The position numbers were made by a program, and so were the translations under genes. Source: Limosilactobacillus sp. (GTDB lineage: Bacteria > Bacillota > Bacilli > Lactobacillales > Lactobacillaceae). Taken from it: 64,000 nucleotides of DNA. The notes below the pieces were generated by a model that did no database searches, was not told the origin of the DNA, and saw nothing but the letters and a program-made list of their open reading frames with translations. The DNA lies in contig NZ_JAKVPE010000001.1 of the NCBI RefSeq assembly GCF_022482365.1, positions 2,098,176-2,162,175 of the forward strand, in the 5' to 3' direction. The stretch's first letter is position 1. Each line of letters opens with the position of its first letter. Below, one piece after another: positions 37,398 to 47,745 of this stretch.

Positions 37398-38906
37398 ATG
37401 GCAGAATACGTAATTGGGGTCGACCTGGGAACGAGTGCGGTGAAGGTTTCGGCAATGGACCGTGACGGTCAGATTGCCGCCCAAGAAAGCTATGGCTACC
37501 CGCTGCACCAGCCGCATCCGGGTTACAGCGAACAGGATCCAAAGGACTGGCTGTATGGGACGACCATCGCCATTGACCGGCTGATCCTGCGGGACGGAAT
37601 CGACGCTGACGAGATCAAAGGGATCTCCTTCTCCGGTCAAATGCACGGCCTGGTTTTGCTGGATGAGAACGGTCAGGTTCTGCGGCCGGCAATGCTGTGG
37701 AACGATACCCGGACCACTAAGCAGTGCGAAGAGATCATGGACAAGCTCGGCGACAAGTTCATTGACATCACGGGGAACCGGGCGCTGGAAGGCTTCACCC
37801 TGCCAAAATTGTTGTGGGTGAAGGAAAATGAACCGGAGATCTGGGCTAAGGCCAAGAGCTTCCTGTTGCCAAAGGACTACGTGCGCTTCGTGATGACCGG
37901 CAAGCAGGCCCTGGACTACTCCGATGCTACCGGGACGGTCCTCTTTGACATCAAGAAGGGCGAATGGAGCAAGGAAATTTGTGACGCCTTCGATATCCCA
38001 ATGTCGATGTGCCCACCGCTGATCCGCTCAATCGACCTTGCCGGAACGGTCACGGATTACTACTCGATGTTCTCCGGACTGAAGACCAGCACGAAAGTCT
38101 TCGGCGGGGGCGGTGACAACGCCTGTGGTGCTGTTGGTGCCGGAATTATCAAGCCAAACATGGTAATGTCCAGCATCGGGACTTCCGGCGTGGTGCTGAA
38201 GTACGAACCGGATGCCAACGTCAACTACCACGGTGCTCTTCAGTATGAATGCCACGCCATTCCGGATTCCTACTATTCAATGGGGGTTACCCTGGCGGCC
38301 GGTCACTCACTGAACTGGTTCAAGCACACCTTTGCTCCCGATGAGGACTTCACCGAGATGGTTGCCAAGGCCGGTAAGCGGCCAATCGGCGCTAACGGCC
38401 TGCTCTTCACGCCGTACGTGGTTGGTGAACGGACGCCGTACGCCGATGCCGATATCCGGGGGAGCTTCCTCGGCGTCGACAGCATGCAGAACAAGTATGA
38501 CTTTGTCCGGGCTGTGATTGAAGGGATCACCTTCAGCTTCCGGGACATCCTCAACATTTATGACCAACACGGCCAGGACTTTGACACGGTCGTGGCGATC
38601 GGTGGGGGTGCCAAGAGTGACTTCTGGCTCCAGCTCCAGGCCAATATCTTCAACACCAAGGTCGTTTCCCTGACTAACGAGCAGGGGCCGGGCCTCGGGG
38701 CATCGATGCTGGCTGCCGTTGGGCTGGGCTGGTACGACTCCCTGGAAGACTGTGCCAAGAAGTTCGTCCACTTCGGCAAGACCTACGAGCCGCAGCCGGC
38801 TGCCGTGGCCAAGTACAATGACCTCTACAAGACCTACCACCAGGTTTACGATCAGACCAAGGGCATCAGCCATCAACTGATGAAGCTGCGGAACGAATGG
38901 GACTAA
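37398..38906 (+). CDS. xylB: Xylulokinase
   Basis: A FGGY-family kinase that phosphorylates D-xylulose to xylulose-5-phosphate, the substrate of phosphoketolase. The N-terminal [15 protein letters not shown] is the phosphate loop, [13 protein letters not shown] near residues 75-87 is characteristic of XylB, and [16 protein letters not shown] in the last third is the second ATP motif. The length of 502 residues is normal. AAGGGA ten bases before the ATG at 37398 supports this start; the ATG at 37389 is too close to it. It follows xylA after a terminator, so it may be expressed by partial read-through or by its own promoter. Confidence 0.96.
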
Positions 38907-38945
38907 TCATAGCAGTCAGATCAACTCAAACATTCTATAACAAAT

Positions 38946-38987
38946 AAAAGGAAGATTACCGTTTGATTGCGGGAATCTTCCTTTTGT
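38946..38987. terminator. Terminator between xylB and the convergent regulator gene
   Basis: AAAGGAAGATT pairs with AATCTTCCTTT around a loop of about 16 bases, followed by TG. A T run also occurs for the minus strand. Confidence 0.75.
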
Positions 38988-38995
38988 TATCTATA

Positions 38996-39844
38996 TTATT
39001 TACTGCTTTCTTGCACCAGGCCGTTGAAGAAGTGCTTGATTGAGACCTGACCGCCGCTGGTGCGCTGGCCCTGAAGATAGGCAATCTCGTTGTGGACGTT
39101 CTTGTATTCGTAGAGGTTGTTGGCATACTCCAGGATGATGTCGTTTTCCGGATAGTCGATACACATGTGGGCCAAGTTGTTGAGGCCGGACCGAATGTCG
39201 CGTCGCACCCGTTGGAAGATTATCTTCTTGCCGTGGGCGTCGCAGCCAAAGGCCTCCGCGAAGTTGATCTCCTCGAAGTCCAGCTCCCGTTCGATCATCA
39301 TGTTGGTGATGCTGATGATTTCCTGGCCGCCGTTGCCCGAGGTAATGCCAAGGAAGCGCAGGATGGAGCGGGCATTTTCCTTTTTCTTTTCCTTATAGCT
39401 GACGGCGACGGTATTGCTGTTGGTGGCGGCACCGCTGACCAGGTCGAGAATCTGGAGGAGGCGCTTCGACATGTCGATGTTTTGTCCAGCCAATTTGATG
39501 ACCGTCTTTACCTCGGCGATGTTAAGGGGCTTTTCCAGGAAAAAGTCGATCCCGTTCTTGTAGGCCTTGGTGCGGGTCTCGGGGTCGATCGCCGTTGCCA
39601 TCATGATGAAGTGGGGATAGTGACGGCTATCCTGAATTCGGTGAACCAGGTCGATGCCATCCATCTTCGGCATGGCGTAGTCGACAAACATGATGTCGAT
39701 ACTGAGCCGCATGGCATCATCGAAGGCCTGCTGGGGATCGGTCGTGGTACCGACGATCGAATTATTGAAGTCGTTTTCGATGATGTTGCGCAGCAGTTCG
39801 GTGGCATTGTCATCGTCGTTATTATTTACAATATAGAAATTCAT
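38996..39844 (-). CDS. Orphan GlnL/YcbB-type response regulator
   Basis: A 282-residue protein with a receiver domain (phosphoacceptor Asp55 in FVDYAMPKMDG, Lys in FFLEKPL) followed by a C-terminal domain of the YcbB/GlnL type (SILRFLGITSGNGGQEIISI to IFQRVRRDIRSGLNNLAHMCIDYPENDIILEYANNLYEY). In Bacillus subtilis GlnL, paired with the kinase GlnK, controls glutamine use. No kinase gene lies nearby, so it is an orphan. AAGAGGA precedes the ATG at 39844. It is divergent from arcB-arcC, and matching repeat triplets are found at its own promoter and before arcB, so it probably regulates both. Confidence 0.85.
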   Translation of the reverse strand: MNFYIVNNNDDDNATELLRNIIENDFNNSIVGTTTDPQQAFDDAMRLSIDIMFVDYAMPKMDGIDLVHRIQDSRHYPHFIMMATAIDPETRTKAYKNGIDFFLEKPLNIAEVKTVIKLAGQNIDMSKRLLQILDLVSGAATNSNTVAVSYKEKKKENARSILRFLGITSGNGGQEIISITNMMIERELDFEEINFAEAFGCDAHGKKIIFQRVRRDIRSGLNNLAHMCIDYPENDIILEYANNLYEYKNVHNEIAYLQGQRTSGGQVSIKHFFNGLVQESSK

Positions 39845-39864
39845 ACTGGGTCCTCTTGACTTTC

Positions 39865-39927
39865 TGAAGTACAATGAAGTTTTTTGAAGTTCAAGATTAT
39901 TTTACCGCTTCGTGCAATGACGCACAA
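39865..39927 (-). promoter_or_regulatory. Promoter of the GlnL-type gene with three 10-bp-spaced repeats
   Basis: On the minus strand TTGTGC (39922-39927), a 17-bp spacer and TAAAAT (39899-39904) form the promoter. Just downstream, on the plus strand, TGAAGT occurs at 39865, 39875 and 39885, exactly 10 bp apart with four-base gaps. Their position over the transcription start suggests autorepression. Confidence 0.6.
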
Positions 39928-39988
39928 TAGAATTATTTGAAAATGATGGTTAATTCCCGTGGAGTGGGCATTTATTTCATCAAAAAAC

Positions 39989-40100
39989 TTGGGTCCGCTT
40001 TCATTGATGTTATAATAGGCCTTGAGAAGCAAATACCGCAAAATTTTTTCGATAAATTTTGCGAAGTTATGCGAAGCTTCTTGAAGTATACCGGTATGAT
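39989..40100 (+). promoter_or_regulatory. arcB promoter region with inverted repeat and three 10-bp-spaced repeats
   Basis: TTGGGT (39989-39994), a 16-bp spacer and TATAAT (40011-40016) form one promoter. GCAAAATTT and AAATTTTGC form an inverted repeat at 40038-40062. GAAG repeats at 40063, 40073 and 40083 (CGAAGT, CGAAGC, TGAAGT) lie just upstream of TATGAT (40095-40100), a second possible -10 that has no good -35. This is the layout expected for an activator-dependent promoter. Confidence 0.55.
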
Positions 40101-40132
40101 AGTAACTGTAATAACCAAGGAGGAATTTAATT

Positions 40133-41140
40133 ATGGCTTTTAATTTACGTAATCGCAGTTTCTTAACTCTCGCTGACTTCAACAAGCGTGAAATGGAATA
40201 CATGCTTAACCTGGCTGAAGATCTGAAGAAGGCTAAGTACACTGGTACTGAAGCTAAGAACCTCGAAGGCAAGAACATTGCCCTGATCTTCGAAAAGAGC
40301 TCCACTCGGACCCGTTGCTCATTCGAAGTTGGTGCCAAGGATGAAGGTGCTCACGTAACTTACCTCGGTCCTTCAGGCTCACACATTGGTCACAAGGAAT
40401 CTGTTAAGGATACCGCACGTGTTCTTGGTGGCATGTTCGATGGTATCGAATACCGTGGATTCTCCCAGCGGAACGTTGAAACCCTGGCTAAGTACTCAGG
40501 TGTTCCAGTATGGAACGGTCTGACTGACGAAGACCACCCAACCCAAGTTCTGGCCGACTTCCTGACTGCTCACGAAGTTCTGAAGAAGCCATACGAACAA
40601 ATCAAGTTCGGCTTCGTTGGTGACGGCCAAGACAACGTATCCAACGCCTTGATGTTAGGTGCTGCCGTTATGGGGATGGAATACCACGTTGTAACTCCTA
40701 AGGAACTGAACCCAACCAAGGAAGTTCTGGACAAGGCTAACGCAATTGCCAAGGAAACTGGCGCTAAGATCGTTGTTTCCAACGACGTTAAGGAAGGCGT
40801 TAAGGGCATGGACGTAATCTACGCCGATGTTTGGGTATCAATGGGTGAATCCGACGACATGTGGGAAAAGCGGATCAACCTGCTGAAGCCTTACCAAGTA
40901 ACGATGGACGTTATGAAGGCTACTGAGAACCCTAACGTTCTGTTCGAACACTGTCTGCCAGCATTCCACAACCTGGACACTGAAGTAGGTAAGGAAATCT
41001 ACAAGAAGTTCGGTCTCAAGGAAATGGAAGTTACTGACGAAGTCTTCGAAAGCAAGCACTCTGTTGTCTTCCGTGAAGCCGAAAACCGGATGCACACCAT
41101 CAAGGCTGTGATGGTTGCTACCTTAGGTGAACAGGGCTAA
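40133..41140 (+). CDS. arcB: Ornithine carbamoyltransferase, catabolic
   Basis: In the arginine deiminase pathway this enzyme splits citrulline with phosphate into ornithine and carbamoyl-phosphate. The carbamoyl-phosphate motif STRTR is at residues 57-61, HPTQVLAD near 133-140, the ornithine-binding block WVSMGE further on, and HCLPAFH near 272-278. The length of 335 residues and the direct linkage to carbamate kinase indicate the catabolic (ArcB) rather than biosynthetic (ArgF) form. AAGGAGG precedes the ATG. arcA and the arginine/ornithine antiporter are not in the window. Codons show a high-expression bias. A repeat triplet for a GlnL-type regulator lies upstream. Confidence 0.96.
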
Positions 41141-41156: not shown

Positions 41157-42089
41157 ATGGCTAAAGTAGTTGTTGCCTTAGGTGGTAACGCCCTCGGTAA
41201 ATCACCTGAAGAGCAATTAAAGTTAGTTAAGAATACCGCATCCTCATTGATTGGTCTGATCGATGCTGGTAACCAAGTTGTTATCAGCCACGGTAACGGT
41301 CCACAGGTTGGTGCCATCAACCTGGGCATGAACTTTGCTGCCGAGAATGGTAAGACGGCTGCCTTCCCATTCCCTGAATGTGGTGCCATGAGCCAAGGCT
41401 ACATTGGTTACCATCTGCAACAGAGTCTGCAAAACGAACTGCACAAGCGGTGGATGAACAAGAATGTTGCTACCATCGTTACGCAGATTGCCGTTGACCC
41501 ACAGGATCCAGCATTTGACAATCCTTCCAAGCCAGTTGGTGACTTCTACACGAAGGAACAAGCTGAGCAAATCGAGAAGGAAAAGGGCTACACCTTTAAG
41601 GAAGACGCTGGCCGGGGTTACCGTCAGGTCGTTCCTTCACCACTGCCGAAGAAGATCATGGAACTCGACAGCATCAACACGCTGATCGAATCCGGTGACC
41701 TGGTTATCGCTGGTGGTGGCGGTGGGGTTCCAGTCATCATGACTGATGACGGTCTCCAAGGTGTTCCTGCCGTTATCGACAAGGACCGTTCTAGCTCCCT
41801 GCTGGCCGACCAAATCAGTGCCGACAAGCTGATCATCCTGACTGCCGTTGACTACGTATACGTCAACTACGGCAAGCCGGATGAAAAGGCCTTGAAGACG
41901 CTGACGATCGACGAAGCTCACCAGTACATGGACGAAAAGCAGTTCGCTGCTGGTAGTATGCTGCCGAAGATCGAAGCCTGCATGTCATTCGTTGAAGGCC
42001 ACCCAGAGCGTGAAGCAATTATCACTTCTCTGAACGGCTTAGACGATGCCTTAGCTGGCAAGGTTGGTACGGTTATTCGTGACAACTAA
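41157..42089 (+). CDS. arcC: Carbamate kinase
   Basis: The enzyme transfers phosphate from carbamoyl-phosphate to ADP, yielding ATP, ammonia and carbon dioxide, the energy-gaining step of arginine catabolism. The 310-residue protein begins [12 protein letters not shown] and has [11 protein letters not shown] near residues 41-51, the family's nucleotide-site lysine region [14 protein letters not shown] and a late AADK-like block ([14 protein letters not shown]). AGGGAGG precedes the ATG. The gene starts 16 bp after arcB, so the two are one operon, ended by a strong terminator. Confidence 0.96.
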
Positions 42090-42211: not shown

Positions 42212-43132
42212 ATGACCAATAAGAAAGTCTTGGGGACGGTCATGATCATCGTGGCCTGTACCTTTTGGGGGATCTCGGGCTTGTTTGCCAAGGCCCTGTT
42301 TAATGCCAGTACGGAAATCACTTCGATGTGGGTGACTCAAACCCGGATGATTTCTGCCGGAATTATTTTGCTGATCATCAGCCAGTTCAAGGGCGACCAG
42401 CCATTCAAGATCTTTAAGAACCTGCACGATGCCTGGGTAATCTTTGCCTATGGCTTCTTTGGATTGGTGCCGGTGCAGTACGGCTACTTCATGGCGGTCC
42501 AGTTTGGCAACGCCTCGATTGCGACGGTTTTGCAGTTCTTGGGACCCTTCTTCATCATTGCCTACGTGGCCGTCTTCCGTCACATTCCGCCGCGCCGGAT
42601 CGAGATCATCAGTGCGCTGATCGCCTTTGCCGGGGTCTTCATCCTGGCAACGCACGGTCAGCTCAATCACATGGCAATCACGCCCCTGGTCCTGTTCTGG
42701 GGTCTGGTTGCTGCGGTGGGTGTTGCCACCAACACCCTGATTCCTCAGCAGATGCTGCGGACCAACCGGGTACCATCGCTGGTGGTGACCGGCTGGGGGC
42801 TGCTCTTTGCGGGATTGTCGCTTTTGGCCATTCACCCGGCCCAGCCGCACGTTCCCAACCTGCCGATTGTTTGGATCTGCTGGCTGGGGATCCTGGTGAT
42901 TGGGACCCTGATCCCGTTCCAGCTGGCTAACAATTCACTCAAGTACATCGACGCGACGACCTTTAGCCTGATGGATGCCTTTGAGCCGTTGGCGGCCACG
43001 ATTGGTTCCGTTTTGCTGTTCAATCTCCACATGACGGGGATGGACATCGTGGGGTCGATCCTGGTAATCGTGGCGGTGCTGGCGATTAACATTCGCATCC
43101 CGCAACACCACGAAGGTGAAAACATTGCTTAA
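42212..43132 (+). CDS. EamA/DMT-family permease
   Basis: A 306-residue membrane protein with ten helices in two EamA repeats (FWGISGLFAKALFNAS in the first, VLFWGLVAAVGVATNTLIP at the start of the second, TFSLMDAFEPLAATIGSVLLF near the end). Members export or import amino acids, metabolites or cations; the substrate is not predictable. GGAAAG precedes the ATG at about eight bases. Convergent with the matrixin-like gene, sharing a bidirectional terminator. Confidence 0.88.
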   Translation: MTNKKVLGTVMIIVACTFWGISGLFAKALFNASTEITSMWVTQTRMISAGIILLIISQFKGDQPFKIFKNLHDAWVIFAYGFFGLVPVQYGYFMAVQFGNASIATVLQFLGPFFIIAYVAVFRHIPPRRIEIISALIAFAGVFILATHGQLNHMAITPLVLFWGLVAAVGVATNTLIPQQMLRTNRVPSLVVTGWGLLFAGLSLLAIHPAQPHVPNLPIVWICWLGILVIGTLIPFQLANNSLKYIDATTFSLMDAFEPLAATIGSVLLFNLHMTGMDIVGSILVIVAVLAINIRIPQHHEGENIA

Positions 43133-43996: not shown

Positions 43997-45275
43997 GGTA
44001 GATTATAGAATGAAGTTAGCCACCCAGTTGGTGGTAAATAAAAAACGCCATTCGGCGTGACATCAGGTATCATATTAAGTGAACCAAACCTATATGAAAG
44101 GATGTCCGTCAAATGACGCACTTAAATGATACCATGTCTACTATTTTATTGACTACTCATAAAAAGAATGCTCATCTTACTAAAGAAGAACGTGTGATGA
44201 TTGCGACTTTAAAGTCGCAAGGACTTTCCAATCGCGCAATTGGTCGCCAATTAGGAGTTAATCATCAAACAATTAATAACGAGCTCAACCGTGGTACGGT
44301 CCGCCAACTTCGTCGTCAAAAATCTAATGGTAAGATTTACGAATATTCTTACTACATCTATAGTTATGAAGCTGGTCAGGCCACATATCTTGAACATCAC
44401 CGCCATTCTGGTCGTCGTCGCTTATATTATTCTTCAAAGCAATTTTTACGATTAGCTGATCAGCTAATGCTTGGTGAGTTTGACGACCACCATTACTCCC
44501 CACAAGCGGTTATTTATAAGGCTCGAGATTTAATGAATGATGGCACCCTGATCCCAAAGTCGGTTGTAACTTTATATCAATGGATTAATGAGGGTGTGCT
44601 TCGTACGTCCAATTTAGACCTCTTTGAAAAACCTAAACGTAAGCATCATCAAACTCATCCGCAAGCTAAAAGGTGCTTAGGGCCTAATATTGCTCAACGA
44701 CCTCAAACTGCGGACCAACGGTCCGAAATTGGCCATTGGGAACTGGATACAGTTCAGGGACAGAAAAACGGTAATGACAGTGTTGTACTAGTAATGACTG
44801 ATCGCCTTTCACGAGTTAATATCACGAGTAAAATTGCTGGTAAAACTGCGCATGCAGTAAATCAGTTCTTTATAAATTTGCGCCAGAAAATGGGCACAGA
44901 TGCTTACTATCGCATTTTTAAGACAATAACCTCTGACAACGGTTCAGAATTTAGTGAGTTAACACAAGTTCACGATCATGTTTTCTATGCTGATCCGTAT
45001 TCCCCTTGGGAACGTGGATCCAATGAGATCAATAACCGGTTTCTCCGCAAGGAGATTACCAAAGGTGAAGCTATAAATAACTATAGTAGTGCTCAGATCA
45101 TAGCGACTAATGATTGGATGAATCACTATCCACGAGCTATGTTTAATGGACATTCGTCAATGGATATCTATCGTAAGGCCTTCTACCAAGAGATATCACA
45201 GCTCCATCAACCAATAATCAATTGGTCAGTATTATTTATTTGAGTCCAGTGGCTAACTTATTCTTGAAATTTAGG
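43997..45275 (+). mobile_element. IS30-family insertion sequence, copy 2
   Basis: A second 1279-bp copy of the element at 16500, with the same ends and the same orientation. It is flanked by the 14-bp direct repeat AATGGAATTCACAG at 43983-43996 and 45276-45289. Because each copy has its own target repeat, the copies inserted independently. This one lies between the matrixin-like gene and a hypothetical gene. Confidence 0.93.
44113..45243 (+). CDS. IS30-family transposase, copy 2
   Basis: This 376-residue protein is identical to the one at 16616-17746, with the N-terminal helix-turn-helix and the DDE motifs GHWELDTV, TSDNGSEF and SPWERGSNE. The frame is intact. Identity at the nucleotide level as far as I compared the two copies (starts, ends, internal blocks) implies recent transposition. 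It points towards the hypothetical gene at 45347. Confidence 0.95.
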   Translation: MTHLNDTMSTILLTTHKKNAHLTKEERVMIATLKSQGLSNRAIGRQLGVNHQTINNELNRGTVRQLRRQKSNGKIYEYSYYIYSYEAGQATYLEHHRHSGRRRLYYSSKQFLRLADQLMLGEFDDHHYSPQAVIYKARDLMNDGTLIPKSVVTLYQWINEGVLRTSNLDLFEKPKRKHHQTHPQAKRCLGPNIAQRPQTADQRSEIGHWELDTVQGQKNGNDSVVLVMTDRLSRVNITSKIAGKTAHAVNQFFINLRQKMGTDAYYRIFKTITSDNGSEFSELTQVHDHVFYADPYSPWERGSNEINNRFLRKEITKGEAINNYSSAQIIATNDWMNHYPRAMFNGHSSMDIYRKAFYQEISQLHQPIINWSVLFI

Positions 45276-46690: not shown

Positions 46691-47745
46691 GGCAGATTGT
46701 AGAATTTAAGTTGAACATTTGAGTGGACAGAAAAACCCATAAAGGTCTTTAATGGTGTCACCACAACATTCCATTAGAAAGAAGGACCTTTATGGGCACC
46801 ACTATTTTATCATTTGAAGACCGCGTTGTCATCGAAACACTTCATCATGAAAAGCACTCACTTCAATATATTGCCGATTATTTAGGCTTTAGTAAAACCA
46901 CTATCTTTAATGAGGCTCATCGCTTAGCTGGTGAGTATCACGCAGTTAAGGCTCAAACTGACCATGAAGTTAAACTTAGTCATCGTGGTCGTAAAACCAT
47001 CTTAACGACTAACCTAAAGCGATTGATTGAAGAAAAAATCAAGATCCAAAAATGGTCAATTGAACAAGTGGCTCATGTAGTTAGAATTGCCTACAAAACC
47101 ATCTATAACTGGATTGATCAGGGACTACTGGATATTAATGTGACTGATTTACCTGACCATGGTATTCGTCGCAAACGAGCTAAAGAAACCCGTGGTACTT
47201 TTCGTCATGGACGTTCCATCGAAGATCGTCCAGCTGAAATTTCTGATCGTAATACTTCAGGTCACTTTGAAGCTGATACAGTTTTATCTGGAAAACGTAA
47301 AGGTCAAGCAGTAGCTACGTTTGTCGAGCGTAAGAGTCGGCTTACCATCGTTAAACGGCTTAATGGACGAGATAGTACTTCAATGACCAAGGCTATTTTA
47401 GAATTGGCTAACCAGTTAGGAGATAATCTCAAGACCCTTACTGTTGACCATGGGAAAGAATTCGCCAACTACAATTTGATTGAAGAACAGACCGGTGTTC
47501 CGCTGTACTTTGCGCACGCTTATTCGCCACATGAACGAGGCAGTAATGAAAATCGCAACCGAGTACTACGCCGCTTCATTCCCAAAGGTCAACCGATTGA
47601 TGAGATTACCGATGATGAATTGATTCAAATTAACTGGTATTTGAATTCCCGACCACTCAAATGTTTAAATTGGCGAACACCGATTGAGCTCTTTTTGCGT
47701 AATCTGCGTTACTAAATTTGTTCAAGTTATTTCTTGCAATCTGCC
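46691..47745 (+). mobile_element. IS30-family insertion sequence, second type
   Basis: The 1055-bp element has inverted ends GGCAGATTGTAG...AAGTTGAACA and, in reverse complement, GGCAGATTGCAA...ACTTGAACA. It differs from the IS30-type copies at 16500 and 43997. No clear target duplication beyond two bases was seen. It interrupts a gene whose 3' end remains at 47746-47826. Confidence 0.88.
46792..47715 (+). CDS. IS30-family transposase, second type
   Basis: A 307-residue transposase with a helix-turn-helix start (LSFEDRVVIETLHHEKHSLQ, IADYLGFSKTTI) and the DDE core visible as GHFEADTVLSG, LTVDHGKEF and SPHERGSNENRNR. The length is typical for the shorter IS30 members. AGAAAGAAGGACC precedes the ATG. 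The frame is intact, so the element may be mobile. It is AT-rich compared with core genes. Confidence 0.94.
   Translation: MGTTILSFEDRVVIETLHHEKHSLQYIADYLGFSKTTIFNEAHRLAGEYHAVKAQTDHEVKLSHRGRKTILTTNLKRLIEEKIKIQKWSIEQVAHVVRIAYKTIYNWIDQGLLDINVTDLPDHGIRRKRAKETRGTFRHGRSIEDRPAEISDRNTSGHFEADTVLSGKRKGQAVATFVERKSRLTIVKRLNGRDSTSMTKAILELANQLGDNLKTLTVDHGKEFANYNLIEEQTGVPLYFAHAYSPHERGSNENRNRVLRRFIPKGQPIDEITDDELIQINWYLNSRPLKCLNWRTPIELFLRNLRY

Follow-up and report, generated by a model that had tools for sequence, protein, structure and literature searches.

The locus described here raises the question of why two triplets of short repeats lie between a response-regulator-like gene and arcB, and whether the regulator next to them, which has no evident partner, is the protein that uses them. 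A first-pass annotation of the window, by which we mean the whole 64-kb stretch of Limosilactobacillus DNA that was analysed, had proposed that six GAAG-containing hexamers in two sets, each with an exact 10-bp period, link an orphan GlnL-type regulator to arcB, the second set preceding a TATGAT -10. All six hexamers, their period and the -10 (at 40095-40100) were verified in the sequence, and the features of the region are as follows.

38996-39844, minus strand: orphan gene for a 282-aa protein resembling a response regulator, with a degenerate receiver and a YcbB (GlnL-type) DNA-binding domain (Pfam Response_reg 5.3e-18, YcbB 5.1e-28)
39865-39890, plus strand: regulator-side triplet TGAAGT-N4-TGAAGT-N4-TGAAGT, at 20-44 bp from the start codon of the regulator; top match in the window (17.4) of a matrix from other genera
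39899-39927, minus strand: candidate regulator promoter TTGTGC-N17-TAAAAT, read from the sequence, the -35 matching at only 3/6
39989-40003, plus strand: weak cre-like sequence, two mismatches to the cre consensus
40011-40016, plus strand: second candidate arcB -10, TATAAT with TGT before it, upstream of the arcB-side triplet; putative, likewise read from the sequence
40037-40063, no strand assigned: perfect inverted repeat directly next to the arcB-side triplet (10-nt arms, 7-nt loop); resembles a minus-strand terminator, with only three G-C pairs
40062-40087, plus strand: arcB-side triplet CGAAGT-N4-CGAAGC-N4-TGAAGT; second and third matrix matches in the window, in two registers
40095-40100, plus strand: arcB -10 hexamer TATGAT, the last repeat starting 13 bp before it; best -35 match 2/6
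40133-41140, plus strand: arcB, catabolic-type ornithine carbamoyltransferase (NF003286 and TIGR00658 over cut-off)
41157-42089, plus strand: arcC, carbamate kinase (TIGR00746 over cut-off)
42212-43132, plus strand: EamA-family transporter (Pfam EamA), which adjoins arcC in many relatives of the genus, on either strand

The regulator has a receiver followed by a YcbB domain (PF08664), both over the gathering score, which fits a response regulator of the GlnL/YcbB type; in a PDB sequence search the best 60 of 195 matches covered mainly its receiver part. Its neighbours are xylB and arcB, and no glutaminase or glutamine transporter gene was identified among them. The description of the gene as an orphan holds at the locus itself, as there is no cognate sensor kinase gene beside it, but the same genome carries a second, kinase-paired YcbB regulator (G000:C1:485 kb), 39% identical to the first. 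Here, at 483.8-486.1 kb, a sensor kinase gene precedes the regulator gene with a divergent transporter gene beside the pair, and this kinase is the only homologue of its kind in the genome (E<=1e-20). The transporter gene, named yfcC here, has Pfam DcuC over cut-off and YfcC as its best NCBIfam model, at 281 bits against a curated cut-off of 500, and is preceded by the same type of site as arcB. About 57 kb from the locus, outside the window, arcA (over cut-off), argR and a gene for a basic amino acid/polyamine antiporter lie together, the antiporter scoring over cut-off for TIGR00905 and just below it for the arginine-ornithine model TIGR03810. Two transposase-like genes, presumably of the IS30 type by their appearance, are found downstream of the arc region (44113-45243 and 46792-47715).

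With up to two mismatches the triplet pattern occurs at two places only in the window (shuffle mean 0.16; two matches in 1/100 shuffles), and with up to one mismatch it matches the 2.34-Mb genome only at these same two arrays. A backward control pattern, again with up to one mismatch, also gave two matches in the 2.34-Mb genome and therefore the strict triplet pattern alone is weak genome-wide evidence; it is position and conservation that carry the case for the arrays. Across 29 same-genus regulator-arcB intergenic stretches, YGAA pairs on the arcB-sense strand number 65 at a spacing of 10, 38 at 20 and 18 at 30. Between 4 and 30, no spacing other than these multiples of 10 has more than nine, and the opposite strand has none at a spacing of 10. 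Ten representatives hold 24 pairs at a spacing of 10, against a mean of 0.70 and a maximum of 5 in dinucleotide shuffles, 0/2000 of which reached 24. The sample is 29 rather than 30 because the coding sequences looked at in L014 (G035) run together without intergenic DNA, which is probably an artefact of that record; loci L001, L002 and L033 were left out of the counts as repeats of the window. Chance was rejected as the source of the repeats on the shuffle counts, this spacing test and the matrix described below. An RNA element was also rejected, as no Rfam match exceeded the gathering score in 38850-40200, where there was one sub-threshold match to sraA.

The matrix was trained on 16 arcB promoters from seven other Lactobacillaceae genera with the kinase pair, and includes no Limosilactobacillus sequence. 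Its three best matches in the window, at 39863, 40050 and 40060 (scores 17.4, 13.0 and 11.5), are the two arrays under discussion, with the top unrelated match at 7.2, and in a 15-kb region around the paralogue the best match is the yfcC promoter (17.3), the rest of the region reaching 0.5 once other registers of the same array are set aside. Only the two target upstreams among the 40 gene upstreams in the window score 11 or more; the accompanying shuffle test is not a strict one, with one forward and four reverse upstreams, targets included, at p<0.05. Control of arcA by the same type of site was considered and rejected, its promoter in the own genome scoring -9.1 (p 0.46) and the arcA promoters of this and five YcbB-less genomes ranging from -3.0 to -9.1. 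Between arcA and argR of the own genome, just upstream of argR, lies a weak match (L068:9352-9379; 9.9, p 0.005) that could be a hint of cross-control or could be chance.

Conservation was assessed in 36 orphan regulator intergenic stretches, with 300 shuffles per stretch and uncorrected p. The first-pass annotation had made conservation of the triplets alongside the regulator the test of its proposal, and this stands for the regulator side, where the array is found at p<0.05 in 35/36 stretches (p<0.01 in 32), and stands for the most part on the arcB side, where it is found in 25/36 (p<0.01 in 23) and fails in the other 11; both arrays reach p<0.05 in 24/36. The arcB-side array is significant at 23/23 of loci L003-L026 (without L014) and at 0/6 of loci L027-L032, thus failing in 6/29 Limosilactobacillus stretches, and of the seven other-genus orphan loci two are significant, one of them marginally. 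At L027 and L028 the regulator-side match is in the middle of the stretch, some 222 bp away from the start codon. By these counts, the regulator's own array is the constant one, and in some lineages the arcB array has drifted or been lost, which counts against universal control of arcB.

The association of the two genes is itself close. In all 30 same-genus loci (the best locus per genome) arcB adjoins the orphan regulator. Fifty genus genomes were surveyed, 31 of which have arcB (>=83% identity; a 48% carbamoyltransferase in G016 was not counted), and none of these lacks a YcbB regulator (E<=1e-50), the orphan being present in 30 and only a kinase-linked one in G005; among the 19 genomes without arcB, a YcbB regulator is found in G042 only and is kinase-linked. 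In 301 genomes of the family, 35 have both genes, five YcbB only and five arcB only, with a gap between YcbB and arcB of 0.7-2.6 kb in 35/35, although Fisher p-values for this co-occurrence overstate the evidence because the species are related. At 16/19 kinase-linked loci of other genera the regulator-kinase pair is divergent from arcB with yfcC downstream, the other three (L119, L128 and L129) having yfcC only; 14 of these 16 loci have arcC, and 14 have no arcA in the stretch. The proposed link between regulator, repeats and arcB is thus supported from three sides, by the neighbouring genes, by co-occurrence and by a motif whose training was independent.

Some variation in gene arrangement was also observed. 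One further orphan lies beside yfcC (G014), and that of Furfurilactobacillus siliginis has no arcB in its stretch. In L070 (G013) the regulator-arcB cassette is duplicated about 14 kb apart, one copy consisting of a regulator whose frame is broken and an arcB interrupted by stops, and in L069 (G005), which is without an orphan, two arcB genes flank a regulator-kinase-yfcC block, with an array only at the arcB next to yfcC.

The arrangement of the arrays relative to the promoters bears on what a bound regulator might do. Of 55 arcB and yfcC upstreams with a good array, four had no -10 by the rule used; in the other 51 the -10 follows the start of the last repeat by 13 bp in 44 and by 14 bp in seven, ties having been resolved towards 13 bp. 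None of the 51 has a -35 matching better than 4/6, and arcB in the window has 2/6. An array in place of a -35, at constant spacing to the -10, is the usual layout of activator-dependent promoters, and because of this constant spacing and the poor -35 the arcB-side array suggests itself as a candidate activator site. On the other side, the distance between a 10-bp array and the start codon of the regulator is 15-58 bp in 29 genus stretches, and a -10-like hexamer stands just upstream of it in 23/29 genus relatives, a count made in A+T-rich sequence without a control; this position, just before the start codon with the hexamer upstream, suggests autorepression. A consensus promoter scan reported none of the promoters named here, giving one match against 2.0 in shuffles, and that match (minus strand, 40112-40085) overlaps the arcB array. 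Other elements of the region include the inverted repeat at 40037-40063, which has shorter arms in L004, the nearest relative, and the weak cre-like sequence, which adjoins the second candidate arcB promoter (39989-40016); many other genera have a cre-like sequence in a different place, overlapping the final repeat ahead of the arcB -10.

If the regulator acts at these sites, does it do so as a conventional phosphorylated protein? In the alignment the window protein has Asn7-Asn8 at the acidic pair, followed by a two-residue insertion, and Ala at the aligned Ser column, with Thr84 one residue on; Asp55 and Lys105 are kept, and the complete pocket (acidic pair, Asp, Ser/Thr and Lys) is therefore absent. 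All pocket residues are kept in 27/27 kinase-linked regulators as against 3/38 orphans, the remaining 35 having lost part of the pocket, and the phosphoacceptor Asp itself is missing in 21/38 intact orphans. As the window protein and 16 other orphans keep this Asp, phosphorylation of the window regulator by another kinase or by acetyl phosphate may still take place. In 649/741 orphan pairs, compared with 71/351 kinase-linked pairs, similarity is higher in the DNA-binding part than in the receiver. Furthermore Cys228 is present in 36/39 orphans, and since it is also found in 9/27 kinase-linked regulators a redox role for it is only a possibility. The pocket counts omit two duplicate regulators and one frameshifted copy, the latter still being inside the 649/741 and 36/39 counts, and regulators with matches of less than 700 bases were left out (a frame-broken Pediococcus gene, L174; the split paralogue of G048, L073; and a partial one in G261).

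A tree with eight regulators from other Bacilli as its root places the orphans in one clade (100/100) nested among kinase-linked regulators, with at least four changes of the Asp. This clade has two subclades, and in one of them the earliest branch consists of L. mucosae-type sequences whose pocket is intact. A kinase lies beside YcbB in 30/30 outgroup loci, which were the highest-scoring among 128 genomes that gave a match. Given this nesting and the outgroup loci, the kinase-linked form is ancestral in Lactobacillaceae; most simply, the kinase partner was lost once, perhaps after a duplication, as some genomes carry both forms.

We consider it probable that the triplets are operators of the adjacent kinase-less YcbB/GlnL-type regulator, which would activate arcBC and repress itself, although binding, direction of control and independence from phosphorylation are all inferred. 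Three other explanations have to be weighed against this. It would seem unlikely that the regulator represses arcB, either as a roadblock downstream of a start at TATAAT (40011-40016) or by covering the -35 of the TATGAT promoter; repression is kept as a rival because the second TATAAT, upstream of the arcB-side array, could give arcB another start, and the repeat itself scores 4/6 as a -35 in 18/51 promoters, but the constant 13/14-bp spacing to a -10 with so poor a -35 argues for activation instead. Another explanation turns on the paralogue, which with its sensor and its place beside yfcC could be the real user of the sites, the orphan being an auxiliary or a vestigial competitor. The same 10-bp array at the paralogue's yfcC promoter fits this, as does G005, which has a kinase pair and no orphan and yet carries an array at one of its two arcB genes. 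We nevertheless regard this as quite improbable, given that only 9/50 genus genomes have a kinase homologous to that of the paralogue (E<=1e-20), that 23/30 orphan-bearing genomes, some of them incomplete, show none, and that the greater conservation of the orphans' DNA-binding domain than of their receiver is unlike the decay of a whole gene.

Least credible of all, and very improbable, is that the repeats belong to some other regulator, for example CcpA or ArgR, with the YcbB gene as a bystander. Cre-like sequences with at most one mismatch do occur within 150 bases of 40/65 arcB starts, often overlapping the last repeat, a count that has no shuffle control. The array, however, has three or four TGAA-like units, and a cre could account for no more than the last one; it also precedes regulator genes and yfcC and is absent before arcA in the five YcbB-less genomes, and the presence of arcB tracks that of YcbB.

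Under the preferred reading, in which the orphan activates arcBC and represses its own gene, protomers would bind head-to-tail, one per helical turn, on the TGAAG-like units. At arcB the array would replace the -35, its last unit starting 13 bp before the -10, and bound regulator would most likely activate arcBC, whilst at its own gene, just before the start codon, it would most likely repress itself. The ancestral Lactobacillaceae form is a kinase-regulator pair beside arcB-arcC-yfcC, probably a module for turning citrulline or arginine into ATP. The simplest course for the orphan clade is a single loss of the kinase, followed by repeated decay of the receiver pocket, with the DNA-binding domain and its sites being kept. 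The window regulator probably works without a dedicated kinase, its activity perhaps being set by its own autorepressed level, by a ligand or by another signal. If yfcC is arcE, which is itself inferred, arcB-arcC-yfcC would match the ArcE-ArcB-ArcC citrulline pathway, and for this reason citrulline or the arginine/ornithine balance would be the likeliest signal. A more specific version, which we put forward tentatively and find somewhat doubtful, is that what was once a two-component system now works as a one-component switch free of any kinase, in which the former receiver, or Cys228 in the DNA-binding domain, reads a pathway metabolite or redox state through the ancestral operator code.

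How does this compare with known systems? B. subtilis GlnL binds the direct repeats TTTTGT-N4-TTTTGT, and the window arrays have the same six-plus-four geometry; the likeness of these putative operators is one of geometry only, since the unit here is TGAAG-like and not TTTTGT. The YcbB output domain (PF08664) is common to B. subtilis GlnK-GlnL (YcbA-YcbB) and the window regulator, B. subtilis being the only one of 14 control genomes with a YcbB match, but the window gene has no adjacent kinase and its receiver pocket is degenerate. Whereas GlnL activates glsA-glnT, as stated in PMC7060608, the neighbour and likely target of the window regulator is arcBC.

By the tree, the closest relatives are the pair in the own genome and, in other Lactobacillaceae genera, the kinase-linked YcbB regulators found next to arcB-arcC-yfcC. 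These have the same 10-bp TGAAG-like operator type, 13-14 bp before the arcB or yfcC -10, and differ from the window regulator in having a kinase and every pocket residue. ArcE, ArcB and ArcC make up a short citrulline pathway, according to PMC5300872, and the 16 kinase-linked other-genus loci with arcB and yfcC would resemble such an exchange module if yfcC is arcE. In the window, by contrast, the transporter next to arcC is of the EamA type, with yfcC and arcA-argR-arcD elsewhere. In the open-access literature we found no paper that connects the arc genes of lactobacilli with a YcbB/GlnL regulator or with its site. The little-studied YcbB/GlnL family would, on the preferred reading, gain a concrete second job, in the arginine and citrulline energy metabolism of lactic acid bacteria, with a defined putative operator. 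ArcBC activity bears on how well gut and food lactobacilli tolerate acid and on their supply of ATP.

Both YcbB/GlnL regulators and aspartate-less receivers (ALRs) are already known kinds. Like ALR regulators such as RitR, the orphans would be response regulators that have left kinase control; the window protein is not itself an ALR, because it keeps Asp55, and the orphans that have lost the Asp are. RitR has a redox cysteine, as described in PMC5965902, and for Cys228 of the window regulator such a role is only a possibility. The main addition made here is an evolutionary one, in that the same site type would serve a kinase-regulator pair in other genera and a kinase-less orphan in this one. 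Around one operator type there is a graded natural series, running from the kinase pair, through the three intact-pocket orphans of L. mucosae type and those such as the window and L. reuteri-type proteins that keep the Asp in an altered pocket, to orphans without the Asp. YcbB/GlnL effector domains are, according to PMC4395418, considerably enriched among ALRs, and this series may help to explain that enrichment.
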